Shown: positions 1,463-27,829 of the stretch, piece after piece | Layout of the letters: the number at the start of each line of letters is the position of its first letter | Position numbering within the stretch: position 1 is the stretch's first letter | Origin: a virus | IMG/VR virus record: IMGVR_UViG_3300036832_000374 | Coordinates: 1 to 27,829 of that record | Direction: 5' to 3' (one strand) | DNA length: 27,829 bases | Position numbers and translations under genes: made by a program | Notes under the pieces: model-generated | Seen by the model: the letters and a program-made list of their open reading frames with translations, nothing else | Database searches by the model: none | Told to the model about the DNA's origin: nothing

Positions 1463-1696
1463 ATGGCCAAGTTGACTGCGGCCCGCCGTAAGGCAATTCC
1501 GACCTCTCAGTTCGCCGGTCCGGACCGGTCCTATCCCATCATGGATAAAAGTCACGCACGCAACGCGTTATCCCGGGTGAGCCAGTACGGCAGTCCGGCT
1601 CTGATTGCCAAAGTGCGTGCGGCGGTGCATCGTAAGTATCCGTCGATCGGCAAGGAGGGCAAGTCGCGTTCATTCGGGAGCTTGATACATGACTAA
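1463..1696 (+). CDS. DUF6582-like small phage protein
   Basis: A 77-residue basic protein of a type common near phage structural genes. The pattern is an N-terminal MAKLTAARRKAIP, then F-A-G-P-x-R-S-Y-P-I-x-D-K-x-H-A-R (about residues 17-33), an Ala/Ser-rich helix and a basic C-terminus. This matches my memory of the family labelled DUF6582, whose function is unknown. GGGAGGAGGA at 1451-1460 gives a strong ribosome site just before the ATG. The last residues, FGSLIHD, match the ends of two nearby small proteins. Its end overlaps the next gene by eight bases, indicating coupled translation. Confidence 0.7.
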   Translation: MAKLTAARRKAIPTSQFAGPDRSYPIMDKSHARNALSRVSQYGSPALIAKVRAAVHRKYPSIGKEGKSRSFGSLIHD

Positions 1697-1910
1697 AAGA
1701 AAGAGCAGGCTATTTGAACGTAAGGGCTCCGTCGTTATCATGGACCGTGTCGACCCGCATGCTTTTGACGGCAAATGTGAGCTGTGTGGCGCGCTCGGCG
1801 AGCTGCGACCTTATGGCCCGAACAACGAAAATATCTGCTTTGACTGCGGCATGAAGGACAAGGCAATTACAAACCGGATGTTCAAGCAGTTTATTGATGG
1901 ACAAACCTGA
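1689..1910 (+). CDS. Small zinc-ribbon-like protein
   Basis: A 73-residue protein with two CxxC knuckles, C30-E-L-C33 and C50-F-D-C53, 16 residues apart, each followed by Gly. This is the classic layout of a structural zinc ribbon. The N-terminus is strongly basic (MTKRKSRLFERK) and could bind nucleic acid. The start at 1689 overlaps the previous gene by eight bases, with GGAG a short distance upstream; an internal ATG (residue 18) is an alternative that keeps the zinc site. Unlike its neighbours it lacks the F-G-[ST]-L tail. A DNA/RNA-binding or virion-associated role is possible. Zinc binding itself is inferred from the cysteine pattern. Confidence 0.65.
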   Translation: MTKRKSRLFERKGSVVIMDRVDPHAFDGKCELCGALGELRPYGPNNENICFDCGMKDKAITNRMFKQFIDGQT

Positions 1911-1912
1911 TC

Positions 1913-2116
1913 ATGCCGATCGTCTCGAAACAGCAAGCGCGTTTCATGTACGCCCATCAGGATGACCCCGGGCGGCTCGGAGATGTCGCCAAGGAATTCA
2001 TCCAAGCTAGCCCGCACGGCAAAGGTGCCTACAAGGGGCTGCCGAAGCGTGTGAAGGGTAGCAAGTCGACCCGCCAGAAAACCATGCGCCGGTTTGGCAC
2101 GCTCGCGATGGAGTAG
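1913..2116 (+). CDS. Small basic phage protein, SKQQARFM type
   Basis: A 67-residue, very basic protein beginning MPIVSKQQARFMYAHQ, then V-A-K-E-F-I-Q-A and a K-G-L-P-K-R-V-K segment. It resembles the common small phage proteins that start M-P-x-x-S-K-x-Q-x-R-F-M and contain x-K-E-F (some are labelled DUF3008), whose function is unknown. The ATG follows the previous stop by two bases, so translation is probably coupled. It ends in FGTLAME, the same tail type seen in the proteins at 1463 and 2121. The high positive charge suggests contact with DNA or with an acidic virion protein, but this is inference. Confidence 0.6.
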   Translation: MPIVSKQQARFMYAHQDDPGRLGDVAKEFIQASPHGKGAYKGLPKRVKGSKSTRQKTMRRFGTLAME

Positions 2117-2120
2117 CTAA

Positions 2121-2324
2121 TTGGCTCTGGAGCCGCCACCGCGGAAGATATCCAAGGCGGCAGCTGACTATGGCGAAGGTCTGCCGCAGGCACATTGCGG
2201 CATCTGCCAGCATTTCACCTCACCCAACAAATGCTCCGTCGTCATTGGGGCCGTTGCGTCAGAAGACTGGTGTAAGTACTTTGCGCGAGTGAAGCGGAAG
2301 TTCGGTTCGCTCAAGACGGAATAG
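2121..2324 (+). CDS. HiPIP-like four-cysteine small protein
   Basis: A 67-residue protein that begins with TTG, since no ATG is available and GGAG at 2110-2113 is well placed. Its cysteines are C26-G-I-C29, C38 and C51. The part from C38 follows the high-potential iron-sulfur protein signature C-x(6,9)-[LIVM]-x3-G-[YW]-C-x2-[FYW] except that the Gly is Asp (S-E-D-W-C-K-Y-F). Small HiPIP-like proteins of this kind occur, from memory, in alphaproteobacterial phages. The cysteines could hold a [4Fe-4S] cluster or a zinc ion. There is no export signal, unlike bacterial HiPIPs. It ends in FGSLKTE, the shared tail. Family assignment is moderate and cluster binding is inferred. Confidence 0.6.
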   Translation: MALEPPPRKISKAAADYGEGLPQAHCGICQHFTSPNKCSVVIGAVASEDWCKYFARVKRKFGSLKTE

Positions 2325-8822: not shown

Positions 8823-9208
8823 TTTCGGCGAGACATGCGCTGCTACGGCAGGCGCAACAATATTTCCATATGCATCTGCTCGGTGTCGTTAGATGGGATG
8901 ACGTCATCGTCGACAAGCCGATTCCGATTCCGCCCGTGCGGGGAAACCGGGAGCAGGGCAAGTTCAAGGACATCGTGGTAACGCACTTCAATGGTTTTCG
9001 GATGGAACTGATCGGGCCATTCGAGAGTGATGAGCCGCTGGGCCTGATCAAACTAAGTCGCGGAGATAATTGGTTCGAGGGAACGCTGGACGCGGTAACT
9101 TGGTCTCGGGCCGCGGACTTCATCAAGCGACATAAACAGCAGGGAGCCGACCATGGCACCGAAAGCACAACCACTACCACTGGAGCCGGAGACGATTGGG
9201 GACGTTGA
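8819..9208 (+). CDS. Hypothetical protein between portal and scaffold
   Basis: A 129-residue protein, basic at the N-terminus (MISARHALLRQAQQYF) with beta-rich middle (DIVVTHFNGFRMELIGPF, LGLIKLSRGDNWFEGTLDAV) and a helix (WSRAADFIKRHKQQ). I know no family for it. It starts in an ATGA overlap with the portal stop. Its final 18 residues, Thr/Gly-rich and probably disordered, are encoded in a 56-base overlap with the scaffold candidate, an unusually long overlap for this window. The tight coupling on both sides suggests it is needed with portal and scaffold in a set ratio, for instance as a portal-binding or nucleation factor. That role is inference. Confidence 0.55.
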   Translation: MISARHALLRQAQQYFHMHLLGVVRWDDVIVDKPIPIPPVRGNREQGKFKDIVVTHFNGFRMELIGPFESDEPLGLIKLSRGDNWFEGTLDAVTWSRAADFIKRHKQQGADHGTESTTTTTGAGDDWGR

Positions 9209-10439
9209 GGAAGGAACGCCGCCGCCGGAGTCGGAAGTCGACGATCTCGGACTGACACCAGACGAGCGCACGGCCTTCGACGGCATGAGGGAGGCCGACA
9301 GAGGCCTTCCGGAGGCTCCAGAGAGCGATGAACCGGAGCCGGCTGCCGACACCCCGGCCGGGGTCGACAGGCCCACCCTTGAGGCTCCGCCCGCTCCTGT
9401 GGAGGCAAAGAAACCGCCTGCTCCGGCGCCCGAGGAGGACGAGGAGCCGGATACGGTCGTTACCGACCCCCGGACCGGCAAGCAACAGCGCACCATTTCG
9501 TTCGGCAAGCACCAGCGGCTGCTCAACAAGGCCCGGCAGGATGCCGAGGCACTGCGCTCTGCGGCCGAGGAAGGCCGGGTTAATCAGGCCAAGTTGGCGG
9601 AGCGGCTGGCCATTCTCAACGAGGCGCTGACGACGGCGCCTCCGCCACAGCCACGGACGCCACAGGAAGAGGAGCATTTACGCCAGCAGGAAATCGCGCA
9701 GAACCCGCTGCTGGAGGATACCATCGACCCGTCGATCGATCTGGCAGGGTCGATCGCGCAGCTGCAGCGGCGTCAGGTCTTCATGGCCAATGCGTCGTTC
9801 TCCCAGCAAGAGGCGACACAGGAGCAATTGGCCGATCAGACGATGCTCCGCGACTTCAGCCGTGACACGGCAGCTTATGCGACGACGCAGGAGGGTGAGC
9901 ATTTCTTCGGTCCGGACGGCGCCTATCAGTATCTCAAGAACAGCCGTCTCGTGGAGCTCGGCATCGCGCTGTTCGACAAAGACCCGACCGACCCGAACGA
10001 GCAATTCACGCAAGCCGAGATCAACAAGATGATTTCGGACTTCAACGTCGAGGAGAAGTGGGTCGTCAACAATGCTCTGACGGCGGGCAAGTCGCCAGCC
10101 AAGGCGATTATGCGGCTGGCCAAGGGGCGTGGTTGGAAGGCGCCGTCAGCACAGCAAGCTGCAGCTGGTACCCAGCAGGCGAAACCGGCACAACCGAGCG
10201 CCCGGCGAGTGCCTCCGCCCATGCCCACCCCCAGTGCGGTCAGGCAGTTGCAGGCAGAACAGGCCGGCGCGGCAGCTTCGCGGTCGCTGTCGGACGGTGG
10301 CGGCGCTCCTCCCGGCGAGCCCCTTTCGATGGAGCAATTGCTGAAGATGAATGATGACGAATTTGGCATATACATCGACAATCTGCCGCCCGCACGGCTG
10401 CAGGCATTGATGGGCCGGGAATTTCCGGGGCGCGGCTGA
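9153..10439 (+). CDS. Scaffolding protein candidate
   Basis: A 428-residue protein placed between portal and major capsid gene, the usual site of the scaffold. Residues 1-110 are acidic and Pro-rich (PLPLEPETIGDVEEG, APAPEEDEEPD) and likely disordered. Residues 115-240 are strongly helical with coiled-coil character (LLNKARQDAEALRSAAEEG, LAERLAILNEAL). Residues 240-330 are mixed. The C-terminal 100 residues contain a Gln/Ala/Pro linker and a final acidic helix (SMEQLLKMNDDEFGIYIDNL), which resembles capsid-binding ends of scaffolds. GGGAG precedes the ATG at 9153. The scaffold call rests on position, charge and helical layout, not on a firm family match. Confidence 0.65.
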   Translation: MAPKAQPLPLEPETIGDVEEGTPPPESEVDDLGLTPDERTAFDGMREADRGLPEAPESDEPEPAADTPAGVDRPTLEAPPAPVEAKKPPAPAPEEDEEPDTVVTDPRTGKQQRTISFGKHQRLLNKARQDAEALRSAAEEGRVNQAKLAERLAILNEALTTAPPPQPRTPQEEEHLRQQEIAQNPLLEDTIDPSIDLAGSIAQLQRRQVFMANASFSQQEATQEQLADQTMLRDFSRDTAAYATTQEGEHFFGPDGAYQYLKNSRLVELGIALFDKDPTDPNEQFTQAEINKMISDFNVEEKWVVNNALTAGKSPAKAIMRLAKGRGWKAPSAQQAAAGTQQAKPAQPSARRVPPPMPTPSAVRQLQAEQAGAAASRSLSDGGGAPPGEPLSMEQLLKMNDDEFGIYIDNLPPARLQALMGREFPGRG

Positions 10440-10697: not shown

Positions 10698-10888
10698 GAT
10701 ATTAAGAGGTTACCGGGTAATATGCTGAACCCGTAAGCTTGAGGCTTTGAAGTCAGCCTGTTTTGTGGGTGATCGGAAAACCCTCCCGCCCTCTGCAGTG
10801 GGGCGCTTATAAACAGTCTGCACCCATGCATATCGCAAACTGCGCCGCGGCCCCCTATGGGGCCGGGCCATCTTCGCAGGGGTGCCAA
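10698..10888 (+). other. Non-coding leader before HNH gene, with hairpins
   Basis: A 191-base stretch without convincing genes. It holds a strong hairpin, CGGCCCC 10848-10854 with GGGGCCG 10859-10865 and a CTAT loop, 24 bases before the chosen HNH start. A weaker stem, AGGCT 10742-10746 with AGCCT 10755-10759, is followed by GTTTTG and could be a poor terminator. A third weak stem pairs 10714-10718 with 10729-10733. I see no convincing -35/-10 pair. The segment probably arrived with the endonuclease gene, since neighbours on either side are tightly packed. Confidence 0.45.
10848..10865 (+). promoter_or_regulatory. GC hairpin upstream of HNH start
   Basis: Seven perfect G-C pairs with a four-base CTAT loop, ending 13 bases before the AGGGG ribosome site (10878-10882) of the HNH gene. 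No T-run follows, so it is more likely to damp translation or block exonucleases than to end transcription. Confidence 0.4.
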
Positions 10889-11401
10889 GTGGCGTCCGTT
10901 CCACGACTTGAGCGGCTGAACGAATTGTTCCGTTATGACCCCGAAACCGGGCATCTCATACGGCGCATTTCGACGTCGTCGCGCGCTCGGGAGGGGACAA
11001 GGGCTGGGTACCTGCACGAAGCGAGTGGGTACCTATGGGTTAATGTCGACAGCACTCCCTATCGGCAGCATCTCCTCATCTGGCTTATGGTTTATGGCGA
11101 ATGGTGTCCTCGCCTGATCGATCATTCCGATCGCGACCGAAGCAACAACCGCCTCGGTAACCTCCGAAAAGCGACCGAATCTCAGCAGCACCAAAATGCT
11201 GGTTTGCGCCGCGACAATATGTCGGGGGAGCGCGGTGTCCGTCAACATGCCTGTGGGAAATACACTGCCAGACTGTATGTCGACGGTCGAGAAACGCATC
11301 TGGGCTTGTTTGATACGCTGGAAGAAGCCGCTGAGGTCGCGCGGTTGGCGCGCCAGACGCATTATGGCGCCTTTGCGCCACTCTACGACAGAGCGAGGTA
11401 A
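10889..11401 (+). CDS. HNH endonuclease with AP2-like DNA-binding domain
   Basis: A 170-residue free-standing homing-type nuclease. The first 100 residues end in the HNH metal/active site, I-D-H-S-D-R-D-R-S-N-N-R-L-G-N-L-R, which matches the family's 'IDHxNxDxxDNRxxNLR'. The C-terminus is an AP2-like module: G-V-R-Q-H, K-Y-T-A-R-L-Y-V-D-G-R-E-T-H-L-G-L-F-D followed by an A-x-x-A helix. I chose GTG at 10889 because AGGGG lies six bases upstream and the protein then begins V-P-R-L-E-R-L-N-E-L-F-x-Y-D-P-E-T-G, the usual N-terminus; the frame is open back to a TTG at 10763. It sits between scaffold and capsid genes without breaking either. The gene is selfish and not needed for assembly. Confidence 0.85.
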   Translation: MASVPRLERLNELFRYDPETGHLIRRISTSSRAREGTRAGYLHEASGYLWVNVDSTPYRQHLLIWLMVYGEWCPRLIDHSDRDRSNNRLGNLRKATESQQHQNAGLRRDNMSGERGVRQHACGKYTARLYVDGRETHLGLFDTLEEAAEVARLARQTHYGAFAPLYDRAR

Positions 11402-11407
11402 AGCGCC

Positions 11408-12523
11408 ATGTCAACTACAAGCTTTCCGGTTAACGATTCAATGGCCGTCAAGTTGTGGTCGCGAGTACTCGACTACGAGGCTCTCAAATACACGGCGATC
11501 GCACCTTTGATTGGCGACGATGAAAATTCCATCATTCACATGCAGGATGCATTCACGAAAGGCCCGGGTGACGCCATCACCTATGCCATCGTGATGCAGC
11601 TGGCGCAGGCTGGTTTCTCGGAAAACCAGCTGGCCGAGGGCAACGGTGAAGCACTCACCACCTATTCCGATCAGCTTGTGATCAACGAGCTGATGGCGGT
11701 GGCTGGCGTCAAATCCCGGCGCACCATCGACCAGCAGCGTGTGCCATGGGACTTGCGCAACACGGCGAAGGGCCGTCTCGGCGACTGGTACGCCAAGCGT
11801 TATTCAGTGGCTTTCTTCAACCAAGTCTGCAGCTACAATGTCCAGACCGATGTTCGCTACACCGGCCTCAATCCAACGACCTTGGTATCGCCGACCCGTA
11901 TCATCCGGCAGTCTAATCGGGCGAGCGATGATCTTCTGGTCGCTGGTGACACGTTTACTCTCGACATGATCGACAAGGCGAAGGAATTGGCGATCACTGC
12001 GACGCCGATGATTCGGCCGATACGCATCAAGGGCAACAATGGTCCGCGAGGACAGGGCCGCAGCGACTTCGGCAATACGCTGGAGGATATGTACTGCGCC
12101 TACCTGCATCCGTACCAAGTCACGGCAGTTCGCCGCAACACCTCGACCGGTCAGTTCATCGATATCCAGAAGGCGGCATCGATGGGCCGGCAGGATACCG
12201 GCAACCGCATCTTTTCCGGTGCCATCGGCATGTACAACTCGACCATCCTGCGCTCGGCTTACGACGTCACGGATGGTGTGTCTGCAGCCAACGTCGATGT
12301 GCCGACCGTGCGGCGCGCGGTGTTCCTCGGCGGACAGGCGGCGATGATGGGGTTCGGCCGCGACAACAGCCCGAACAAGCTGACGTGGAACGAGGAACTG
12401 TTCGACCACAAGCGGCGCCTTGAGATTTCTGCGCTGACCATCCACGGGATCAAGAAGACCCGCTACAACAACGTCGACTACGGCACCATCGTGATGTCGA
12501 CTTACGCGGCGCCTGCGACCTAA
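11408..12523 (+). CDS. Major capsid protein, N4-gp56 family
   Basis: A 371-residue shell protein. The N4-gp56 family pattern is clear: an N-terminal A-V-K-L-W-S-R, D-x-x-T-Y-A-I-V-M-Q-L, the N-E-L-M-A-V-A-G-V segment, the R-Q-G-x-R-x-D-F-G-N region, Y-C-A-Y-L-H-P-Y-Q-V, and the C-terminal signature D-H-K-R-R-L-E-I followed by G-I-K-K-T-R-Y and D-Y-G-T-I-V. Length is close to the family norm. The fold is HK97-like. The gene lies six bases after the HNH stop, and a GAGG in the end of that gene may act as ribosome site. The decoration candidate follows at once. Confidence 0.92.
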   Translation: MSTTSFPVNDSMAVKLWSRVLDYEALKYTAIAPLIGDDENSIIHMQDAFTKGPGDAITYAIVMQLAQAGFSENQLAEGNGEALTTYSDQLVINELMAVAGVKSRRTIDQQRVPWDLRNTAKGRLGDWYAKRYSVAFFNQVCSYNVQTDVRYTGLNPTTLVSPTRIIRQSNRASDDLLVAGDTFTLDMIDKAKELAITATPMIRPIRIKGNNGPRGQGRSDFGNTLEDMYCAYLHPYQVTAVRRNTSTGQFIDIQKAASMGRQDTGNRIFSGAIGMYNSTILRSAYDVTDGVSAANVDVPTVRRAVFLGGQAAMMGFGRDNSPNKLTWNEELFDHKRRLEISALTIHGIKKTRYNNVDYGTIVMSTYAAPAT

Positions 12524-14245: not shown

Positions 14246-15979
14246 ATGGCGAAGGTTGGCAAGCTCATTTCGTTTCCAGATTATGCGCCGGACGTCACGC
14301 CGCTCGGGACGGCGGATTCGCAGACGATATACAATGTGGTGCCACGCGGCGACGGCTACGGACCGGTGCCGAGCCTGCAACAGTTCACGAACGCACTGCC
14401 GGGACCATGCCGCGGCTATTTCTTTGGACGCAAGACGGATGGTTCGATAGCCATCTTTGCCGGCACCGCCACCGATCTCTATTTGCTCAACAATGCCAAT
14501 TTTCAGTGGGTATTGGCGTCGAAGGGCGGCATTTCCTACGGGGCTCTGCCGTCGACGGACAACTGGTCATTCGCGCAGTTCAATGATCTCATCATCGCCT
14601 GCCAAGCCAATACGGTGCCGCAGAAGTTCATTCTGACGACCGCATCGAACTTTATCGATCTTGGCGGCTCGCCGCCGCAGGCAGGCTCGATATCGGTCAT
14701 CGGCTTCTTTGTTGTTCTGAGCGCGCTGACATCCAATCAGCGGCGGGCGCAATGGAGCGATCTTGATGCGCCAGAGATATGGGCGGCAGGGTCTGGACTG
14801 TCTGACTTTCAGGACTTCCCCGATGGCGGGTCATGCATCGCATCGAGCGGTGGCGACGCCTATGGATTGATTTTTCAGGAGCAGTCGATCAGATCGATGA
14901 CCTATGCCGCCGGCAATCCGGCAATCTTCCAATTCTATCGCTTCTCGACGCAGGAAGCGCTATTCGGCAAGTACTCCATCATCAACATCGGCAATCTTGT
15001 CTTCTACATATCGGCTACTGGCTTCAAGCAGATTCTGAGTACCGGCGACCCGACACCGATCGGTAAGGAGAAGATCGACCGGACGTTTTTCAACGACGCC
15101 GACAAGGGCAATCTGCAGCTTGTGCTCGGCGCATCCGACCCGTCATCGACGCGAGTCTACTGGGCCTACAAGAGCCTGTCCGGAAGTGCGGGGCTGTTCG
15201 ATCGTATCCTCGTCTACGACTATGCTCTCAACAAGTGGACGAGAGTTAACCTTTACGGCGAGTTCATCGCGACGCTGGCCAAGCCGGGAGTATCGCTTGA
15301 ACAGCTGGATGCGGTTGCGCCACAGCAGCTGCTTGTCACCAATGCCCTTGCATCCCCGGTTACGCCGTTGATTCGGCTGACGCTGACGGCAACCTCCAAC
15401 AGCTACTTCAACATCGCCGGCCAGAATTTCATCGTGGTGCAGGGCATCATCGGAACCGGCGGCTTGACTGCGGCGGCCAACGGAACATGGAAGGTCAACA
15501 TCATCGACTCGACACATATCGATCTGATCGGTTCGACTTTTGTCGGGGTCTACACTTCTGGCGGGGCCATCGGTGGCTCGTTAGATGCACTCGGCTTCTC
15601 GCTCGACAGCGTTGCCAAATCCAGCATTGCGCAGCTGTCGGCATTCGACAACACCCACTCGCTCGGGTTTTTCAATGGGCCGACCTTGGAGGCGCTGCTC
15701 GAGACGCCTGACGCAGATGGCGAAGGCCAATATCTCTTCACTGATATCATCATGCCGATCACTGATGCGACACAGGTCTATTGCTCGGTGGGATGGCGCA
15801 ACAGTCCGCAAGGACTGCCGCAGTACACCAAGGAGCAGATCGTCGATGATCAGGGGCAGGCCTGCTTCAATCCGATCGAGAGCCGCTATCAGCGTGGCCG
15901 GGTGCGGATTGTTGCGGGCTCGGCATGGACATTCATCCGCGGCATTCAACCCAACACGCAGCTGGCGGGAGACCGTTGA
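14246..15979 (+). CDS. Tail hub / gp10-like protein with FCCH-like insert
   Basis: A 577-residue protein starting directly after the adaptor stop. Repeated beta-blade-like segments (G-R-K-T-D-G-S-I-A-I-F-A-G-T, W-S-F-A-Q-F-N-D-L-I-I-A, I-G-N-L-V-F-Y-I-S-A-T-G-F, D-R-I-L-V-Y-D-Y-A-L-N-K-W-T-R-V) suggest a propeller, as in P22 gp10, the hub that stabilises packaged DNA. At about residues 375-450 an inserted beta module occurs (N-G-T-W-K-V-N-I-I-D-S-T-H-I-D-L-I-G-S-T-F), the pattern often labelled 'ubiquitin-activating E1 FCCH-like' in phage proteins; here it carries no ubiquitin meaning. The C-terminus closes with R-G-R-V-R-I-V-A-G-S-A-W-T-F-I-R-G-I. The gp10 link is from position and fold pattern. 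Confidence 0.6.
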   Translation: MAKVGKLISFPDYAPDVTPLGTADSQTIYNVVPRGDGYGPVPSLQQFTNALPGPCRGYFFGRKTDGSIAIFAGTATDLYLLNNANFQWVLASKGGISYGALPSTDNWSFAQFNDLIIACQANTVPQKFILTTASNFIDLGGSPPQAGSISVIGFFVVLSALTSNQRRAQWSDLDAPEIWAAGSGLSDFQDFPDGGSCIASSGGDAYGLIFQEQSIRSMTYAAGNPAIFQFYRFSTQEALFGKYSIINIGNLVFYISATGFKQILSTGDPTPIGKEKIDRTFFNDADKGNLQLVLGASDPSSTRVYWAYKSLSGSAGLFDRILVYDYALNKWTRVNLYGEFIATLAKPGVSLEQLDAVAPQQLLVTNALASPVTPLIRLTLTATSNSYFNIAGQNFIVVQGIIGTGGLTAAANGTWKVNIIDSTHIDLIGSTFVGVYTSGGAIGGSLDALGFSLDSVAKSSIAQLSAFDNTHSLGFFNGPTLEALLETPDADGEGQYLFTDIIMPITDATQVYCSVGWRNSPQGLPQYTKEQIVDDQGQACFNPIESRYQRGRVRIVAGSAWTFIRGIQPNTQLAGDR

Positions 15980-17928
15980 TGCCCGGATTCGGCAGCCTCA
16001 TGCCTCTGCTCGACGAGTCGCCGACGTGGCTGAAGAGCGCCTTGCAGGGGTCGCGCGCGGTCGGCAGTAGCGGGGTCGGATTCGGTTCGATGGCACCTGC
16101 TGCCGCTGAAGATGAGCAGAAGTTACGGGATGTCGCCGACTTGCCGGAACAGCAGCCATACTATGACCCGGCGACGGGTCTGCAACTGGCTGGCGGCAGA
16201 GGTGCCAAATATCAGTCACCGCAACCGAAGAAGCAGCCCACTTATACGATGGAGCCCGATCTTACCCAGCAGCAGATGGGCGTTGGACCGGAGGGCGGCT
16301 CGGATGCGCCGAACCCCTATCCGCCCGGCACCGAGGAATCGGACTACTTCGAACGATCGCGGACGGAAGGCCTGCCGCAAGTGCGACGTCCGGGCGTGCT
16401 GCCGGTCGCCAAGACGCCCGAAGGCTATACGCTGGCAGTGCCGAAAGCCGCCGAGCTCGCTCAGTACATCATGGGCGGTCCGGCGATCGAGGCGAAGGCG
16501 GGCGAGGCTGTGCTCGGCGCGGGCATGGCGCGTGTCAAGAGGGCGGCAGCTGCCCGGGCGAAGGTCGCCGAAGAGACGCCACCTCCTCCCATTGGACATA
16601 ATCAACCCCCTCAAAATGTCCAAGGACAAAATGTACCCCCTCAAAATGTCCAGATGGATGAGTTCCAGCCAGTGCGCCCGGAGACGCGGACGGCGCAAGA
16701 GATTGCATATCCACCGCCGCCGAAACCGGTCGGCGATCGCAGCAAGTTCGTCGATGCGTCCGGCAATGCCATCGAAGGCGCGGCTTATACCAAGGAGGCC
16801 CGCCGCATCCTTGATGAGATCGCCGCCGGTCCGAAGGGCGCGGGGCCGATCGATCTGACAAAACCGACGACGCTGCCTCCCGTGCCGCAGGTTGATCTGC
16901 CGCGTTATGCGCCACCGCGAGGTGTCTCGCCTCGGCTGCAGGATGCTCTGAACAATCCGGAGGTGCTCGACGGGCTTCGCCAAGGCATCAGGAATGGCAT
17001 GGAGATGGGCGCCCACAACTGGTACGTCAACGATGCCGTCCGGGATGCCTTCGTCAAGGAGCTCGGACCGGTGAAGGGACAGTCTGAGTTCGAGCGCATG
17101 ATGGACAATGTCGCTGCGACCTCGCCGCGTTCTGATGTGCCGACCAATGTGCGAAATGCATCCTACTATTTCGCTCATGCGACGCCTGCCGATTTGCCGG
17201 ACAAGAATCCCTATCCTTATGGACACATTGCGCAGAAGCTGCACCGGCAGAATATCGAAACGATCAGCAGCGAAGGCGGATGGGAGCCGCTGCAGAATCC
17301 GAAGCCGGCGTCATTCGCACAGAATCTCAAAGGCAACTACGAGCCTGTCACCGCTGATACGCACGCCTTCCGTGCGATCGGCATGCGAACGGAAGACCCG
17401 CGGTTCTTGGAGCCATCGGTCAGTGCGGTGTACAAGGCCGGCGGTGACCCGGCAACGGATACGTTGGTTGGCAAGTACGGAGAAATTTCAAAGAACAAGA
17501 AGGGTCAGGATATTGTGACGTTCAGACCCAGACAGCTATTCGATAGCGGCAAGCTAACGATGGAGGATGCGAAAAAGATTCCATATTTCTGGGCAACCAA
17601 GCCTAAGGAAAACGAATATGCCGCAGTGGAGCAACTCTACAAGCAGTTGGCGGCGGAGCATGGCCTGACGCCGGCTGGCGCGCAGGCTGCAGGATGGGCG
17701 GGTTCGGGCGAACTCACCGGGCTCGGAACGGTGCCGACGCATACCTTCCCGGAGCTCCTCAACGAGCGTATCCTTTTCACTGCCAAGATGCGCGGCGAGA
17801 ACCCGGCGACGACGCTGAAGAATTTCATCCGCGGCAAGAAGCCACTGCTCTCTACCGCACTGACCGCTGGCGCCGGGGCCGCGGGAGCTGCAGCGCTTTC
17901 GAAGCCATCGGATGAGGAGCGGCAATAG
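15979..17928 (+). CDS. Internal virion protein with DNA-glycosylase-like domain
   Basis: A 649-residue protein starting in a TGATG overlap with GGGAG upstream (an earlier in-frame ATG at 15925 lacks support). Residues 1-130 are Pro/Gly/Gln-rich after a distinctive MPGFGSLMPLLDE start; 150-200 are Ala-rich helix; 206-225 are a tandem GHNQPPQNVQ repeat; 230-320 are linker. The folded part, about 345-620, includes N-W-Y-V-N-D-A-V-R (347-355), V-A-A-T-S-P-R-S-D-V-P-T-N-V-R-N-A-S-Y-Y-F (378-398) and V-T-A-D-T-H-A-F-R (457-465). The last resembles the catalytic Asp strand of HhH-GPD DNA glycosylases, and a related phage domain is, I believe, known as DUF7178. It ends in a hydrophobic AGAGAAGAAA helix. 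Ejection with DNA is inferred. Confidence 0.6.
   Translation: MPGFGSLMPLLDESPTWLKSALQGSRAVGSSGVGFGSMAPAAAEDEQKLRDVADLPEQQPYYDPATGLQLAGGRGAKYQSPQPKKQPTYTMEPDLTQQQMGVGPEGGSDAPNPYPPGTEESDYFERSRTEGLPQVRRPGVLPVAKTPEGYTLAVPKAAELAQYIMGGPAIEAKAGEAVLGAGMARVKRAAAARAKVAEETPPPPIGHNQPPQNVQGQNVPPQNVQMDEFQPVRPETRTAQEIAYPPPPKPVGDRSKFVDASGNAIEGAAYTKEARRILDEIAAGPKGAGPIDLTKPTTLPPVPQVDLPRYAPPRGVSPRLQDALNNPEVLDGLRQGIRNGMEMGAHNWYVNDAVRDAFVKELGPVKGQSEFERMMDNVAATSPRSDVPTNVRNASYYFAHATPADLPDKNPYPYGHIAQKLHRQNIETISSEGGWEPLQNPKPASFAQNLKGNYEPVTADTHAFRAIGMRTEDPRFLEPSVSAVYKAGGDPATDTLVGKYGEISKNKKGQDIVTFRPRQLFDSGKLTMEDAKKIPYFWATKPKENEYAAVEQLYKQLAAEHGLTPAGAQAAGWAGSGELTGLGTVPTHTFPELLNERILFTAKMRGENPATTLKNFIRGKKPLLSTALTAGAGAAGAAALSKPSDEERQ
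16594..16653 (+). repeat. 30-bp tandem duplication in coding region
   Basis: Two adjacent 30-base units (16594-16623 and 16624-16653) match at 26 of 30 positions and encode GHNQPPQNVQ and GQNVPPQNVQ. Each starts GGACA and contains CCCCCTCAAAATGTCCA, so the junction also forms the inverted repeat TGTCC-AA-GGACA. The stretch is richer in A and in C-runs than its surroundings. Confidence 0.75.
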
Positions 17929-20900
17929 ATGGCTGGCTTTGGCACCATCGCACCCGGACTGGACGATGATGCCGCTCGCGAGCTGCTGGCTCGTTATCCG
18001 GTGTCGGATACTCCCGCTTCATTCCCACCAGTACCGTCCGCGTCAGCCTCCGAAAATGAGCAGCCCGACTGGAGGGAACGCGAGGCAGAAGCCGGCCTTG
18101 CCGCGAGCCGGCCGAGTGGGGTTTCCACCATGTGGCAGGCGATAAAGCATCCCTCGCTTTACCCTATGTATAAGGCGATGACGGCTCCGCGGGAGGAGCC
18201 TGCGCCGGAAGCCTCCGCGAATCTGCCTGATGCTGGGCCTCCGCTGATCCCGTCGGGGCCACAGATATCCGCCGGCACAAGGATCGGCAGCGCTCTTTCC
18301 CAGAACCTTCCGGAAGCCGTCTTTGGGTCGCTCAAGAGCGGCGTCACCGCACCCGGGGAGGCATTGTCCGGCAAGCTACCAATGTACACCCCTGAGGGCA
18401 CTCTGAACCCGGATGTGGTGGGACGCGCCTTGGACATTGCCGCGCTCGCTGGCGGAGGTTCAGTAGCAGGGACGGCCGAGCGTGCCGCGGCTCGAGCACC
18501 GGGTGACTTCCGTGTCATGGGTCGGCAGCTATTCTCGGACACTGGCAAGCCGGCTGCTGCTGCGGCTGTTGCCGCGCATGCTCCGCAGTACACCACGAGC
18601 ATCGAGGGTGCGCTCGATCGCATTCCGTCTCAGGTATTGACCGGCGACCAGTTCGCCAATCAGCTCAAGCGCTATGGTGCCAAGCCGGAGGAGATGGCCC
18701 ATCGCGACGTCAACGACCTGTTGGTGGGACAGCCTTTAGTCACTAAGGCCCAGATTAGGCAGCATCTGGCGGACAATCCGGTCGAACTCAGGCCGATCGA
18801 GCGTGCAGTTAAGCCATGGGAGGAGCTCACCTCGGAGCAGCAATATAAAATTGCCGACATGCACATGGAGAACCGGCCCCACATTGAGGAGGACAATCCA
18901 AGGGATTACTACAACCGGCTCGTCGAGGAGAATGCAACGTTGTTCGGGGATGCTCCGGTATACCAGCAGTACACCGTGCCCGGCGGTGAGAACTACCGCG
19001 AGCGGCTGATGCAGCTGCCTATGACTGGAAAAGGAGATGCGACAGGCGCGGCAGACTTCGCCAAGCAAATGCGTGAAAAGTACGGCGACCGGTGGGTTGG
19101 CGAACTAACACCAGCGGAAAACGCTAGGTACGATGCATTAATTGAAGCTAGTCCAAAAGAGAGTGAAGTTTTCAAAGGCGGTCATTGGGAGGAGCCTAAC
19201 GTCCTGTTCCATCGTCGCTCCACCGACCGAAACTTCGAGGAGCCGCTCACACAAGATCAAATCTACAACAATCAGGCGCGTGACTTCGCCATCAACGAGT
19301 CTAATTCGATTCAAGACCAGATGGGTGAGATCGGACGCCAGATTAACCGAACTCGTATGCCGATCGAGGCGGCGCGTCGGGAGCAGATTTTTAGCGATAT
19401 GCGTGCTGGTAAGATCACTCCCCCAGAGGCTCAGCGCAGATTCGATGAAGTGCCTGATATTCCTGAGCTGAAGCCGCTGCAGGACAAGCTGCAGGAGTTG
19501 CGTGCCTATCAAGACAGGGTTCATCGGGAGATTCCGGACAAGGTAGAGCCGCAGAAAACCCTGAGCCTACACGACGAAGAAAACCAGAGCGACTGGCATC
19601 AGCAGGGCCGCGAGAAGGGATATGGGTCGGCCGTGCCGCCAGACTGGCAGGTGCGCAAATATCCGGAGAACCCGGACTATTGGCAAATCTATAGCGGCAA
19701 CCGCACCATCGCCGACGTCCCGGTGGGGGTCGCGTCAAATGAGCGGGAAGCGCTGTCGATGGCGGCGCGGCAGAAGGGATTAACTGATATCCCAGACGCG
19801 CCGTTCAAGGGCACCGGCTGGGAGAGGCTGGCGCTGCATGACCAGCTGCGCGAGGCTGCCGAGAAGGGATATCCGCGTATCTCATGGACGGCCGGCGAGG
19901 AGAACCCGACCAATCCAATGGTTATGATGCGTGGACGGTCATTGGATGAGCTGCCAGCAGCGCGACAAGCCGAGATACTGAGGGCTGATAAAGGTATCAA
20001 GGATTACTACAACAGACGTCGCGTCGATCAGGCCAACAAGATCGGCAAGGCACATGGTGTTCAGGTTCAGCGCGGCGCGCTTCCCAATCAGATTCCGGCC
20101 TACTACATGGATATTCCGGACAGCCTTCGCAAAGAGCTGCTGTCCAAGCCAATGAGCCTGTTCTCGGACACAGGCGAAGCAGCCAAGGCAGCCGCAGTGG
20201 CGGAACATCTTCCGGCTGAACAAACTGGCGCCCAAAATGCAAGGTATGCAGACTGGCACGCAGCACTGGAAGGAAGAGAAAATGTCCCCGCGCAAGACGT
20301 TCACCCGACAGCAACTGGAGAAGGAGCTGGGGCAGCCCCGGCAGCCCCAGCACCCGGAGATAATGTCCCCGGAGGAGCTGGAGGAAGAGACGCGGGGCTG
20401 GAACAGGCACAGATATCAGCAGAGCGCGCCGCCGGGCGCCATCTCCCGCTCCCGGGACTTCCCCAAAAAGCCCTCCCGGTAGGTGATCGGCTCTACATTC
20501 CCGGGCCAATAGGCAAGATCAAGGACGTTGCCGAAAGCTATATGCGCGATCGGCCGCAGCCGACCTATCACCTGTCGCCTGATCAATATCATCCAGTAGA
20601 CCCCGAGCACTCCAAAGCCATTGCGCAGGCCTTCGAGGACATGCCGCATGCGCCGGACGACCCGGCAGTGAAAAACTCCTATGCGGCGATGATCAAGGAG
20701 ACGCGCGACCAGTATGATCACATCCGCGCTCAGCATCCCGAGCTGCAAATCGAGGCGAACAAGCCCGGTGAAGACCCCTATGCGGCGACACCGCGGCTGG
20801 CAGCGAGGGATGTCGCGGAAAACAATCATTTTTCGTTCTTTCCGACCCAAGAAGGTTTTGGCACTGGCGAGCAGGGTGGCATCGATATGGCGACGCATCC

Positions 20901-22182
20901 GATGATGCAGCCATCGGGCAGGACGCTGAATGGCAAGCCGCTGCTCAACAACGATCTGTTCCGCATCGTTCATGACTACTTCGGGCACTTGAAGGAGGGC
21001 TACGGTTTTCGCGCTGCGGGCGAGGACAATGCATGGCGATCGCATGCGGCGATGTATTCCGATCTGGCGCGACCGGCGATGACGAGCGAGACGCGCGGCC
21101 AGAACAGCTGGGTAAATTATGGTCCGCATGCCGAGGCTAATCGCGGGGCATCGGCGGCCGACACGATATACACCGACCAGAAAGTCGGCCTGATGCCGGA
21201 GTGGACGATGCGCGATCGCGGCAGTCCAGAGCCGATCATCACCTATCAAGGCTCACCGAGCGGGCATTCGATGGTCGATATGTCGAAAATCGGCAGCGGT
21301 GAGGGGTCAGCCGCTCGTGGGCAGGGCATGTACAGCGCGGAAGCCGAGCCGATCGGGAAGGCTTATCGGATTATGACTGCGGTACGGCAAGACCCGTTGC
21401 TGAAAAAATATAGGTTAAACGAGCGCGATACCAATTCTATGGCTCGCGATCTGGCTGATACCGAAGGTGATCATGGTCCGGTTGTCGAGGACTTACGGGA
21501 CCATATTGAAAACATGAAGGCTAGGCTGGGCGATGGAACCTTAAGTGATGTTCAGGCAGCGGAGACCCGGAGCCAGATCGACAGATCACAAAGGATGATT
21601 CGCTATCTCAACGATTCCAACCGGGCGAAGGGACATCTGTATCAGCTCGCGCTCGACCGGCCGATGGAGCATTTCCTGCACTGGGATAAACCGTTCAGTG
21701 AGCAATCGGACTATGTGAAGCAGAAGCTGCAGCCGATGCTCGACGAGCGAACACCAGTCATTCAACAGGCGCGCGCGCATCTGCTGGCACGAACGCAAGA
21801 GCGGCTCGCGCAGTTGCCGCCGGGTGTCAAGAACCAGAGACTGGAAGCCGATCTGCAGCGCTATTCCCAGCCTGTCGACTGGACGAATACGCCCGGCGAG
21901 AAGCTCTATGGGGTGGCGGCCCATTCCGCGCTGGGACGGGCGGCGAAAGACGCGGAAGAAGCATATCCGGTCGCAAGCCAGTATCTGCGCGCCAGAGGAA
22001 TCGCCGGCATCAGGTATCTCGCCGGGCAAAACTTCAACCTTCCACGCGGCGTTCTGGCAGGCAGCCATAACTATGTTTCATTCACTGCGCCGCGCATCCT
22101 GAAGCGCTATGCCATTCCGGGCGCGATTGGCGCAGGCGCTGCTGGTGCAGCCGCAAGTCAGCGAGGTGAAAATGGCTCGTAG
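17929..22182 (+). CDS. 1417-aa polyvalent virion protein with ART-like domain
   Basis: The largest protein here. (a) MAGFGTIAPGLDD start and Pro/Ala-rich N-terminus. (b) Residues 215-750: the large phage module with V-L-T-G-D-Q-F, P-G-G-E-N-Y-R-E (near 350), Q-S-D-W-H-Q (553-558), I-P-D-A-P-F (621-626), I-S-W-T-A-G (651-656) and a closing S-L-F-S-D (743-747). (c) Low-complexity linker 750-850. (d) Residues 860-1090: F-R-I-V-H-D-Y-F-G-H (H1015, H1020), H1039 and S-E-T-R-G-Q-N-S-W (E1054), a likely metal site. (e) Residues 1105-1390: ART-PolyVal-like, with Y-Q-G-S-P, S-K-I-G-S-G-E-G, G-M-Y-S-A-E (1133-1138) and W-D-K-P-F-S-E-Q (1252-1259). (f) Glycine-zipper C-terminus. Polyvalent proteins are thought to be injected to act on the host; that role is inferred here. 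Confidence 0.75.
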   Translation: MAGFGTIAPGLDDDAARELLARYPVSDTPASFPPVPSASASENEQPDWREREAEAGLAASRPSGVSTMWQAIKHPSLYPMYKAMTAPREEPAPEASANLPDAGPPLIPSGPQISAGTRIGSALSQNLPEAVFGSLKSGVTAPGEALSGKLPMYTPEGTLNPDVVGRALDIAALAGGGSVAGTAERAAARAPGDFRVMGRQLFSDTGKPAAAAAVAAHAPQYTTSIEGALDRIPSQVLTGDQFANQLKRYGAKPEEMAHRDVNDLLVGQPLVTKAQIRQHLADNPVELRPIERAVKPWEELTSEQQYKIADMHMENRPHIEEDNPRDYYNRLVEENATLFGDAPVYQQYTVPGGENYRERLMQLPMTGKGDATGAADFAKQMREKYGDRWVGELTPAENARYDALIEASPKESEVFKGGHWEEPNVLFHRRSTDRNFEEPLTQDQIYNNQARDFAINESNSIQDQMGEIGRQINRTRMPIEAARREQIFSDMRAGKITPPEAQRRFDEVPDIPELKPLQDKLQELRAYQDRVHREIPDKVEPQKTLSLHDEENQSDWHQQGREKGYGSAVPPDWQVRKYPENPDYWQIYSGNRTIADVPVGVASNEREALSMAARQKGLTDIPDAPFKGTGWERLALHDQLREAAEKGYPRISWTAGEENPTNPMVMMRGRSLDELPAARQAEILRADKGIKDYYNRRRVDQANKIGKAHGVQVQRGALPNQIPAYYMDIPDSLRKELLSKPMSLFSDTGEAAKAAAVAEHLPAEQTGAQNARYADWHAALEGRENVPAQDVHPTATGEGAGAAPAAPAPGDNVPGGAGGRDAGLEQAQISAERAAGRHLPLPGLPQKALPVGDRLYIPGPIGKIKDVAESYMRDRPQPTYHLSPDQYHPVDPEHSKAIAQAFEDMPHAPDDPAVKNSYAAMIKETRDQYDHIRAQHPELQIEANKPGEDPYAATPRLAARDVAENNHFSFFPTQEGFGTGEQGGIDMATHPMMQPSGRTLNGKPLLNNDLFRIVHDYFGHLKEGYGFRAAGEDNAWRSHAAMYSDLARPAMTSETRGQNSWVNYGPHAEANRGASAADTIYTDQKVGLMPEWTMRDRGSPEPIITYQGSPSGHSMVDMSKIGSGEGSAARGQGMYSAEAEPIGKAYRIMTAVRQDPLLKKYRLNERDTNSMARDLADTEGDHGPVVEDLRDHIENMKARLGDGTLSDVQAAETRSQIDRSQRMIRYLNDSNRAKGHLYQLALDRPMEHFLHWDKPFSEQSDYVKQKLQPMLDERTPVIQQARAHLLARTQERLAQLPPGVKNQRLEADLQRYSQPVDWTNTPGEKLYGVAAHSALGRAAKDAEEAYPVASQYLRARGIAGIRYLAGQNFNLPRGVLAGSHNYVSFTAPRILKRYAIPGAIGAGAAGAAASQRGENGS
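20282..20482 (+). CDS. Possible overlapping gene in another frame
   Basis: A 66-codon frame nested inside the 1417-aa gene, shifted relative to it. The product (MSPRKTFTRQQLEKELG, then MSPEELEEETRGW and a basic RSRDFPKKPSR end) is charged and protein-like. AAGGAAGAG lies about seven bases before the ATG. By hand only 7 of about 66 codons end in A or T, the usual mark of real coding in this GC-rich DNA, while the host frame here is a Gly/Ala/Pro linker with many codons ending in A. I know no family. It could be a real nested gene, or a former separate gene swallowed when two domains were fused by a linker. Needs conservation data to decide. Confidence 0.3.
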   Translation: MSPRKTFTRQQLEKELGQPRQPQHPEIMSPEELEEETRGWNRHRYQQSAPPGAISRSRDFPKKPSR

Positions 22183-24591: not shown

Positions 24592-26596
24592 TCTGTCTAA
24601 TGGCGATCTGCTTGAGAGCATCATCCGACGATCGATGATGCCGGCGGGACCGGGCGATATTCCTGCTGGCATCGGTGATCCTAACGAGCCAGTGCAGCCG
24701 GGTGTGACGCCGGGTTCGTGGCTCGATCGGCAGACGCGCAAGAAAAAGCAAATGCCGTGGGACGCGCCTCCAGCTCCGGCGCCACAGGGCTTTGGGGTAC
24801 AGGGAAGCTGGGATGCTGGCGCGCCTCCGGCAGCACCGGAGTGGGGCGCTGGCGCCGGCATGCTGGCACCGGGTATCGGCGGGCTCGGCAATATGAATCC
24901 GGCGGTGACGACGGCTCCGACCAATCCGCTTGACCCGAATTATGCCCCGCCGGCTTCGACCGCGAGCCAGCTGCAGGACTTGGTGAGGCCGAGCACAAGC
25001 ACACCCGATCGAGTGCCACTGCCCACTCCTCGGCCCGATGTGCCAGATGTCGCTACTCCAGCGGAGGCAGGACTGCCGCGGGAACGGCCAGCCGAAGCTC
25101 CGCAACGCGAGGCAGATGGCCAGCCAGCCGCGATACCGCGTGAGGTCAATGGCCAACCCACAGTGATGGGAGGTGCCACTAATCAGGCCGGGATGCTTCC
25201 GAGCATTGGCGATATCGGCAGCCGCATCATGCAGGGATTAGGTGCTCATTCGAACCTGTTGCTGGCGTTGGGTGCTGGATTCGCTGGTGCGCCCAATATC
25301 GGGCAAGGCATCTCGCGTGCGGCTGCGGCGGCCATTCCGGCAGGGCAGGCCGACATTCAACAGCAACTAATGATGGGCAATCAAGGGGCAGCCTACAATG
25401 CGCTGATTGCTGCTGGTGTACCGCCGAATCTTGCCCGGATAGGTGCGACGGACAAGGAGGTCATGAAGAACCTGCTTGGTACCTACGTCAATCCGAAGAT
25501 GGAGATCAAGGAGGTCAAGACCGAAACGCCGCTTGGTACGCAAACGAGGCTATATGCAGTCGACCCACTTGGTCGCAGGCCAACGGTTGATGTCCAAACC
25601 GGTCAGCAGGTTGGTCCGGGTTACGCGGGTGGCGGTGTCGCAGGCGCTCCGCCCGGAACGCCCGGTTCGCAGGTGACTGGGATAGGTGGCGCTGCTGTGC
25701 CTCCCGGCACTGACATACAGAGGAGCGCAGCTGGTCAGGCGCTCAACGATGCCATGGGCGGCAAGCTGCCTGCGGATGCGATGGACAAGTACTGGCAGGC
25801 CGCGCAGCTACCATACAATTATGACCCCGAAACCAACCGCGACGAGACTTTTCTGAAAACGCTCGACCCGATCACGGGCAAGGCAGTCAAGGACATTGCC
25901 GATGGCAAGCTGCCGGGAACGGGGCGCAACCTGCAGAAATTGATGCCGCTGGTGTCGCGCTATGAAAACGGCTTCGACAATGTCCGCTATCAGGCTCGGC
26001 AGGGACTGGAGAAATATTATTATGGCGGCGGCAAAGGCGGCGATCAGCTGCGGGCCGCCAACACTGCGATCGACCACGGCGTCAAGCTGGAGAAGGCGAT
26101 CAACGATCTCCATAATTTCTCGACGATGCCCGGCTTTTTAAACAAAGCTACCGGCAAGGTTTCGGAGCAATACAACAAGCAATATCAGGATGCGCTGGCG
26201 CGGTTCAGATTCCACAAGGAGGTTTTTTCGAGAGAGATGGATATGGCGCTCACCGGCAAGTCGACTGTGAGTGGTCAGAATGAAATGAGAAGCAGGTTCG
26301 GAGATTATGCGAGTCCGGTCACTAACCGGGCAGCCCTGTATCAGGCAATGGGTGATCTGCAGGACCGTGTCAATGAACACGAGAACAGCTACCGCACCGG
26401 TATGGGCAAAAAGGGCCAGCAATTCACAGACATGCTGACGCAGCGCGGCGCAATGAACACGATGTTGCAAAACGATGCCGCGACCGGACGTCCATTGTCT
26501 GGTGGTGCGCGGGCACAGGCTCCGGCAGCCGCTGCACCACAGGCACGTCCTCCGGGTGTCTATAATTTTGACGCGAATGGGAATCCTGTTCAATGA
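24584..26596 (+). CDS. Large Pro/Gly/Ala-rich internal virion candidate
   Basis: A 670-residue protein. I prefer the GTG at 24584, since GGAGG (24574-24578) lies five bases upstream; the ATG at 24572 lacks a ribosome site and is the alternative. Residues 1-200 are disordered Pro/Ala-rich. Residues 205-260 hold a hydrophobic glycine-zipper segment (LLLALGAGFAGAPNIGQGI). Residues 300-380 are beta-like. Residues 390-630 are a helical domain with L-P-Y-N-Y-D-P-E-T-N, Y-E-N-G-F-D-N-V-R-Y-Q-A-R, A-A-N-T-A-I-D-H-G-V-K-L and F-H-K-E-V-F-S-R-E-M-D. The last type occurs in hypothetical phage proteins after the tail hub, of unknown function. Its layout fits a protein ejected into or across the membrane. 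It ends in an ATGA overlap. Confidence 0.65.
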   Translation: MPDLSNGDLLESIIRRSMMPAGPGDIPAGIGDPNEPVQPGVTPGSWLDRQTRKKKQMPWDAPPAPAPQGFGVQGSWDAGAPPAAPEWGAGAGMLAPGIGGLGNMNPAVTTAPTNPLDPNYAPPASTASQLQDLVRPSTSTPDRVPLPTPRPDVPDVATPAEAGLPRERPAEAPQREADGQPAAIPREVNGQPTVMGGATNQAGMLPSIGDIGSRIMQGLGAHSNLLLALGAGFAGAPNIGQGISRAAAAAIPAGQADIQQQLMMGNQGAAYNALIAAGVPPNLARIGATDKEVMKNLLGTYVNPKMEIKEVKTETPLGTQTRLYAVDPLGRRPTVDVQTGQQVGPGYAGGGVAGAPPGTPGSQVTGIGGAAVPPGTDIQRSAAGQALNDAMGGKLPADAMDKYWQAAQLPYNYDPETNRDETFLKTLDPITGKAVKDIADGKLPGTGRNLQKLMPLVSRYENGFDNVRYQARQGLEKYYYGGGKGGDQLRAANTAIDHGVKLEKAINDLHNFSTMPGFLNKATGKVSEQYNKQYQDALARFRFHKEVFSREMDMALTGKSTVSGQNEMRSRFGDYASPVTNRAALYQAMGDLQDRVNEHENSYRTGMGKKGQQFTDMLTQRGAMNTMLQNDAATGRPLSGGARAQAPAAAAPQARPPGVYNFDANGNPVQ

Positions 26597-27829
26597 CCAT
26601 CACCATCAATGGACCTGATGGTTCGACGTTCAATTTTCCGGACGGCACGACAGATGACATCATTGGAAGGGCGGTGAGGAATCACTATGGCACGACGCAG
26701 GCTGCAGCGCCTGCGGCTCCAGCCACTCCAGCTGCGCCACCGATCGCTCCGGGCGACCCTCGATTTACTCCAATGGCATTGGAAGCAAAGCAGGCCATCC
26801 GCGGCTTTCTACCGGGCATTGGTCCCCTCGTCTCGGACAGAGGCAGTGCAGCATTGTCTGCGCTGGCCCAGCCTCTGAGCGGTGCGGGTACGACTGCCCC
26901 AACATTCCGGCAGCGCTATGCCCAGAATCTGGCGCAAGAGACCTCGGCGCGTGAGGCTTATGAGGCTGCACATCCGCTGCGCAGTGCGGCAATTCAAGGC
27001 GCGTCTGGCACGGTGGGGCTTCTCGCGGGCGGCGGTCTCATTCCGGGAGCCGCCACCGCACTGGGTATGACGGGGCGGCTGGCTACTGCCATACCGAGAG
27101 CAGCTGCCAGCGGGGCCGTGCTGGGAGCTGCAGACATAGCTGCTCGCGGTGGCGACCCGACGCAGGGTGCCATTGGAGGGGCTTTGACCGGAGCAGCCGG
27201 ACCACTGATCGGCAAAGGCGCCGGCATGGTCTGGGATGCGGCGCGTGGCGCGATGCGCCCGATATCGGACGTTCCAGAGCGCTTCCTGCCGCAACCGGTC
27301 GCTGGCGTGAATGTGCCGGTTCGCGAATCTGTCCTGACGCGCGATCTTCCGACAGCTCGTGAAGAGCAGATCATGCTCAAGGGTGAGGGTGTGCCGACTG
27401 CGGTGCAGGCCGAGCAGGCGACCACTGATGCGATGCGGCAGGCCCACGCCAATCTTGCCACGCAGATGGACCCGACTGGTCAAGCTGCCGCCACTCAAGC
27501 TGCCGGCGTTCATCCGCTTGGCTCGGCGGTCGATGATCTAGTGGCGCAGGAACAGCAGCGAGCCTCTGCTGAGGTGGCGCGTTTGGTCGGTGCTCGGCAG
27601 GATACGGCGCAATTACGGACCGACGTCGGCGGAGGCGTTCAGGGGCCTATGTCAGTTGCGGACGTAGGCACATCGACCGGACAACGCATTCGCGATCTTT
27701 TTGCCGGAGCACGGGCGGCGACGCGCGCAGCCTATGGCGCGGCAGCCAGTGTGCCGGCGACCTACAATCCGCGATATCTGATCAATGCCGGTACCACCAT
27801 CCGCGATGCATTGAATAATCTGCCCGGGG
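26593..27829 (+). CDS. Large virion protein, 3' end cut by window edge
   Basis: The frame runs open from ATG 26593 to the last base (at least 412 residues, no stop). It starts with a small beta-like module, M-T-I-T-I-N-G-P-D-G-S-T-F-N-F-P-D-G-T-T followed by D-I-I-G-R-A-V-R-N-H-Y-G, a type of N-terminus seen on many large phage and prophage proteins. An Ala/Pro linker follows, then hydrophobic Gly/Ala-rich helices at about 130-160 and 170-205 (G-L-L-A-G-G-G-L-I-P-G-A, G-A-I-G-G-A-L-T-G-A-A-G-P-L-I-G), then Ala/Gln-rich helical sequence. The hydrophobic pieces suggest membrane interaction during DNA ejection. Function beyond that is unknown. ATGA overlap with the preceding gene. Confidence 0.7.
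   Translation, partial: MTITINGPDGSTFNFPDGTTDDIIGRAVRNHYGTTQAAAPAAPATPAAPPIAPGDPRFTPMALEAKQAIRGFLPGIGPLVSDRGSAALSALAQPLSGAGTTAPTFRQRYAQNLAQETSAREAYEAAHPLRSAAIQGASGTVGLLAGGGLIPGAATALGMTGRLATAIPRAAASGAVLGAADIAARGGDPTQGAIGGALTGAAGPLIGKGAGMVWDAARGAMRPISDVPERFLPQPVAGVNVPVRESVLTRDLPTAREEQIMLKGEGVPTAVQAEQATTDAMRQAHANLATQMDPTGQAAATQAAGVHPLGSAVDDLVAQEQQRASAEVARLVGARQDTAQLRTDVGGGVQGPMSVADVGTSTGQRIRDLFAGARAATRAAYGAAASVPATYNPRYLINAGTTIRDALNNLPG

Follow-up and report, generated by a model that had tools for sequence, protein, structure and literature searches.

Why should three neighbouring small proteins of one phage, with bodies that have nothing in common, end in nearly the same few residues? The question arises from a window of 27,829 nucleotides (27.8 kb), the whole stretch of DNA analysed here, which is an entire virus record from a podovirus-like phage, so labelled for its P22-type portal, its terminase and its phrog_334 capsid protein. 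In what follows, we describe the motif in the window, trace it through related phages, ask what its distribution depends on, and weigh the functions that it may serve.

Terminal FG strings in the window and the proteins that carry them

The three proteins are a DUF6582-like protein (1463-1696, + strand), a small basic protein containing SKQQARFM (1913-2116, +) and a HiPIP-like four-cysteine protein with a TTG start (2121-2324, +). Their translated open reading frames confirm the pattern F-G-[ST]-L-x-x-[DE] reported in the preliminary description, the tails being FGSLIHD (1673-1693), FGTLAME (2093-2113) and FGSLKTE (2301-2321), each with Phe as the seventh residue from the C-terminus. The Cys-rich small protein encoded between the first two (1689-1910, +; phrog_18256) is untagged. 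Similar strings open two large proteins: the late protein at 15979-17928 (+; DUF7178) has the N-terminus MPGFGSLMPLLDES, starting MPGFGSLMP (FGSL at 15988-15999), with a second copy, FGSMAP, farther on (FGSM at 16081-16092), and the polyvalent-type protein at 17929-22182 (+) has the N-terminus MAGFGTIAPGLDDD, starting MAGFGTIAP (FGTI at 17938-17949), with another FGSL at 18322-18333. An internal FGAL (614-625) lies in a small low-complexity protein (428-748, +), whose orthologues in related phages keep FG[AS][LI] at the same place; its membership of the tagged set is uncertain. The gene at 771-1373 encodes a 200-aa protein that consists of HPI[AVY]-centred repeats and Pro-rich segments (PAHPIAPGG, PAHPIVIPP), a relative of which occurs in locus L096.

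Across the roughly 30 predicted proteins of the window (8,791 aa), strings of the broader form FG[STAQN][LIMV] number eight, in six proteins, and all eight fall in tails, in N-terminal regions or in the low-complexity middle of the 428-748 protein; none was found in the terminase, portal, scaffold, capsid or tail proteins. Five of the tags are written in differing codons (ttcgggagcttg, tttggcacgctc, ttcggttcgctc, ttcggcagcctc and tttggcaccatc) and are therefore not recent DNA copies of one another.

The bodies are partly recognizable. The DUF6582 label given earlier to the first protein is poorly supported in Pfam, with 16.8 bits for a cut-off of 27.3, but clear as a match to phrog_16160 (E=2.6e-20), and the body resembles part of gp45 of crAss001, a protein that mass spectrometry and cryo-EM place in virions (PMC10172136). 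After the DUF6582-like stretch of gp45 itself (L250:2161-4689; also L248 and L249) comes AFGGSLF, and strings of a similar form, [FY]GGxL, occur near docked segments, a resemblance to the tag that is possibly coincidental. The HiPIP-like label is supported by a profile match to PioC (E=1.6e-9), by matches to other HiPIPs and by four invariant cysteines (C26, C29, C38 and C51), the iron-sulfur cluster being predicted only; orthologues of this phage gene (2121-2324) in related phages adjoin the terminase gene. Neither Pfam nor PHROGs assigned a function to the SKQQARFM or HiPIP-like bodies, and a tblastn search of annotated phages with the SKQQARFM protein gave no matches. The AlphaFold model of the SKQQARFM protein shows two helices and is unstructured beyond residue 32, as would be expected for a flexible docking peptide, though the confidence of the model is low.

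The tag in related phages

Relatives were collected by a terminase search, which gave nine close ones (81-82%), and by capsid alignment, which extended the set to 74 loci with identities down to 25%. Within the clade, defined as soil phages that share the capsid/portal module of the window, about ten unrelated protein bodies carry FG[ST][LIM] near the N-terminus, the C-terminus or both. Large proteins carry the tag at the N-terminus, small ones at the C-terminus and several at both ends. Its N-terminal form is M-x(1,4)-[FW]-G-[ST]-[LIM], after which A-P and acidic residues are usual, and its C-terminal form usually lies 5-12 residues from the end. As a short terminal peptide common to otherwise unrelated proteins, it meets one criterion for a targeting sequence of the T4 or P1 type.

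Conservation is seen in three families. Orthologues of the 15979 protein start MPGFGTLAP, MAGFGSLAP, MPGFGSLAP or MPRFGSLAP, and those of the 17929 protein start MPGFGTLAP, MAQFGSLAP or MANGFGSLAP, which bears out the earlier suggestion that the strings opening these two proteins are linked to the small-protein tails. The SKQQARFM orthologues retain the tag in all clade members (RRFGSIGIRH, RKFGSLSR, RKFGSLAMD, RRFGSIGARREK, RKFGQLGGD), and the linker that precedes the conserved FG varies in length. Several large proteins bear a second, C-terminal copy (GFGSLAQRDQ, SFGSMAREDQ, GFGSLAPKQDNQP, VFGSMAPGSDTGQ, AFGSLMPQDQRQ, IFGSLGPRGK), and two of these open with a Trp variant, WGSLAP. N-terminal tags also occur on further unrelated small proteins in L167 (146 and 172 aa), L198 (219 aa) and L165 (126 aa), and L207, L234 and L264 each encode two consecutive tagged proteins. 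A check of homologous tails, which had been proposed as a test, thus succeeds for the SKQQARFM and large proteins and fails for the other two small proteins of the window: the tail FGSLKTE is found only in the window, the HiPIP-like orthologues in L090 and L094 (located after the terminase) being without it, and nearly all DUF6582 homologues lack an FG tail, the exceptions outside the window being L019 and L020 (RRFGQLG). The L020 phage encodes homologues of the portal, scaffold and capsid proteins of the window.

Could so short a motif arise by chance or from composition? It has only four residues, and the HiPIP-like tag was seen once. The terminal zones of 593 non-redundant clade proteins, however, contain FG[ST][LIM] 19 times (11 N-terminal, 8 C-terminal), whereas the other 23 orders of the same residue classes together give 19 terminal occurrences with at most 3 for any one order, and the 1,568 proteins of control loci give 2. 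Tagged proteins number 16 of 593 in the clade and 2 of 1,568 in the controls (Fisher p=7.6e-8). The motif was picked after the window had been viewed, though most of the counted proteins lie outside it, and the division into clade and control was also set after looking, so the p value is only a guide. The simple longest-ORF rule used for gene calling missed some tagged genes, including two of the three small window proteins, which makes the counts conservative. In an unsupervised search for terminal words, FGSL ranked high among N-terminal words, with 9 occurrences where 1.4 were expected; among C-terminal words it was outranked by stretches that homologous families conserve at their ends. A scan of IMG/VR with a stringent nucleotide pattern encoding M-x-G-F-G-[ST]-[LIM]-A-P matched 30 stretches, and 16 of the 18 ORFs of at least 90 aa that start at these sites lie in clade contigs, several of them as near-identical copies. 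Together with orthologue conservation, differing codons and the unrelatedness of the bodies, the permutation and control counts largely refute an origin by chance, to which we give almost no credence, in agreement with the original judgement that coincidence was unlikely.

Some motif-like strings were not accepted. Capsid C-termini with DFGTVVVSTYAA were set aside as part of the capsid fold; an FGAL near the C-end of an 861-aa protein in L116 is not retained in orthologues; and an FGAI in a 450-aa ORF of L123 is antisense to late genes.

Association of the tag with the virion module

When relatives of the 17929 protein were searched with its C-terminal half only, every clade member whose N-terminus is present proved to be tagged. 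Homologues in L254-L256 (45-47% identical over about 580 aa), L260 and L261/L262 carry the tag at neither end, and these loci are without the clade capsid and nozzle genes within the DNA examined. A variant, MGPFGSTMPP, occurs in the L174/L263 phage, whose capsid protein is 63% identical. Similarly, SKQQARFM homologues that have clade portal, scaffold or terminase genes in the same locus end in FG[STQ][LI], and those in L267, L268, L272-L275, L277 and L278 (57-59% identical) share a different conserved C-terminus, VLNxIMxQLNQE; the genes with this tail directly precede that of a 2,044-2,154-aa protein, and the tail is absent from the proteins neighbouring this group. Since the outside homologues of both the 17929 and SKQQARFM proteins lack the tag, it tracks the virion module and not the protein body, as far as the compared loci tell. 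Isolates with a portal 35-40% identical (RHph_Y1_10, Mae-JY35, ctDrO704 and KLEP18-1) have no comparable set of terminal FG tags. The loci that a capsid scan of bacterial genomes returned, in Methylobacterium, Shinella and elsewhere, encode no tagged proteins, and hence no host was found for the tagged clade.

This distribution bears on the idea that the tag has no role in packaging and acts only once it has been injected, perhaps through contact with a single host or phage protein inside the infected cell. Polyvalent proteins do function in the host (PMC5512222), where a terminal docking peptide could be of use. A virion receptor nevertheless fits better with a tag that follows the virion module and is missing from homologous bodies elsewhere. 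We regard a purely post-injection role as very unlikely, without excluding it, as host identity is not controlled in the comparison.

Packaging, its alternatives and known systems

Sequence comparison demonstrates that the motif is real, terminal, carried by unrelated bodies and bound to this virion module. What it does is inferred, and we think it probable that cargo is recruited into the virion through FG[ST][LIM] acting as a short linear docking motif, the packaging, the receptor and the injection each being inference. Most likely, the tag would attach during assembly to a conserved inner surface of the procapsid, provided by scaffold, capsid or portal, and the polyvalent proteins and several small proteins would in this way be packaged and later injected with the DNA; it would work at either end and apparently remain uncleaved. 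Two untagged proteins are candidate receptors: the putative scaffold (9153-10439, +), whose role is inferred from its position upstream of the capsid gene and its composition, and the major capsid protein (11408-12523, +; phrog_334), whose structure model has the HK97 fold and is nearest to that of Ralstonia phage GP4. Between their genes lies an HNH endonuclease gene (10763-11401), probably a homing insertion.

We favour recruitment because the motif is terminal, independent of the body, limited to one virion lineage and found on proteins of a packaged type. The enrichment at termini over permuted motifs and controls, and the conservation in orthologues of the 15979, 17929 and SKQQARFM proteins, point the same way, as do the likeness of the DUF6582-like protein to gp45, the polyvalent domains of the large proteins and the precedents of the T4 capsid targeting sequence (CTS) and P1 DarB. 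LPD23 was called in two large clade proteins (L157 and L203), and partial ART-PolyVal matches, all below the cut-off, in several; the 17929 protein, which is homologous to the L157 protein, has no LPD or ART-PolyVal call of its own. With such domains and a position among virion genes, the large tagged proteins meet the criterion for polyvalent proteins, for which packaging and injection have been proposed from domains and late-gene context; no common packaging tag is described for them in the portion of the source available (PMC5512222). Against recruitment, the HiPIP-like tag is unique to the window, virion data do not exist for the clade, the tag is missing from annotated isolates whose portals are related, and the receptor cannot be identified from sequence. 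An open-ended ejection-type protein at 26593-27828 has a different N-terminal module, ITINGPDGSTFNFPDGTTDDIIGRAV, which is kept in clade orthologues; the tag is thus not required of every internal protein.

The receptor might instead be the portal or the ejection-protein core, in which case the tag would order ejection and not select cargo from the shell or scaffold side. The cargo protein gp45 of crAss001 binds the portal wing and the tail barrel (PMC10172136), and the large tagged genes adjoin ejection-protein genes; the small tagged genes, however, are distant from these, upstream of the terminase, and no sequence feature favours the portal over shell or scaffold. This alternative seems to us unlikely.

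The T4 CTS is a close precedent for a peptide of this kind: a short (about 10 residues) N-terminal peptide on several internal proteins, which the head protease removes (PMC7697877). The FG tag resembles it as a short terminal peptide common to several proteins, here with unrelated bodies, and differs in lying at either end, in its unrelated sequence and in the lack of an S78 protease in the records searched. The removal of the CTS, together with the shortness and terminal position of the motif, gives some ground for reading the tag as a processing site for a maturation protease that trims tagged ends in the head. Six records, several of them incomplete, contained no Peptidase_S78, the only family searched, with control genomes positive; moreover, the motif is absent from the scaffold and capsid proteins, the usual substrates, and an N-terminal cut would take off just a few residues. 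We therefore hold processing to be highly improbable. Of the three roles first suggested for the motif, docking and packaging fit the evidence, packaging by inference, whereas cleavage is disfavoured.

In phage P1, the first 30 residues of DarB, a large head-packaged protein that is delivered to the host, suffice as an N-terminal packaging signal, and no consensus signal was found among the Dar proteins (PMC9024508). The FG tag would likewise provide an N-terminal signal on large proteins; unlike the P1 case, it has a clear consensus and occurs also at C-termini and on small proteins. A third parallel is offered by encapsulin targeting peptides, such as the native PLTVGSLRRGG of M. xanthus with its conserved GSL motif (PMC7925596). 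Both are short flexible peptides with a hydrophobic-Gly-Ser-Leu core, a criterion that FGSL and its variants meet, and the shell inside which encapsulin peptides dock cargo has the HK97 fold, as does the capsid protein of the window. However, encapsulin peptides are always C-terminal and lie on the cargo of a cellular compartment, whereas most large clade proteins are tagged N-terminally; the FG tag has Phe before Gly, and capsid binding is not known for it. The likeness is only a resemblance, and the further proposal that FGSL binds the inner face of the HK97-fold capsid, as encapsulin peptides bind a pocket on the inner face of their shell, with a common mechanism and perhaps a common origin, and with other lineages having tags of their own, is speculative and in our view improbable.

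Large ejection-type proteins of other phages (L129:39646-41544, L128:8609-10777, L260:3565-9201 and L187:15978-18128) open with duplicated short motifs of their own (FDDLVPA/FDDLIPA, MFDDIPSG/MFADIQPA, GDWDVVSTEP/GDWDVVSHEP and DITKVPTDQLKAML/DITQVPTSELQAML), which may be address motifs belonging to other lineages. At the polyvalent-protein site of L104, L116, L147, L156 and L177, several large proteins end in G[IT]RG (GFLGTRG, PILGIRG, GTIGIRG, AVGIRG and LPVGIRG), possibly a second common C-terminal word.

To our knowledge, the way in which a phage chooses the proteins that it packs with its DNA is understood in few systems. With a natural consensus present at either end of many unrelated proteins, cargo selection becomes open to direct test; on this reading, the particle is predicted to carry several small proteins without a known function, the HiPIP-like one among them, and virion cargo could become predictable from sequence alone.
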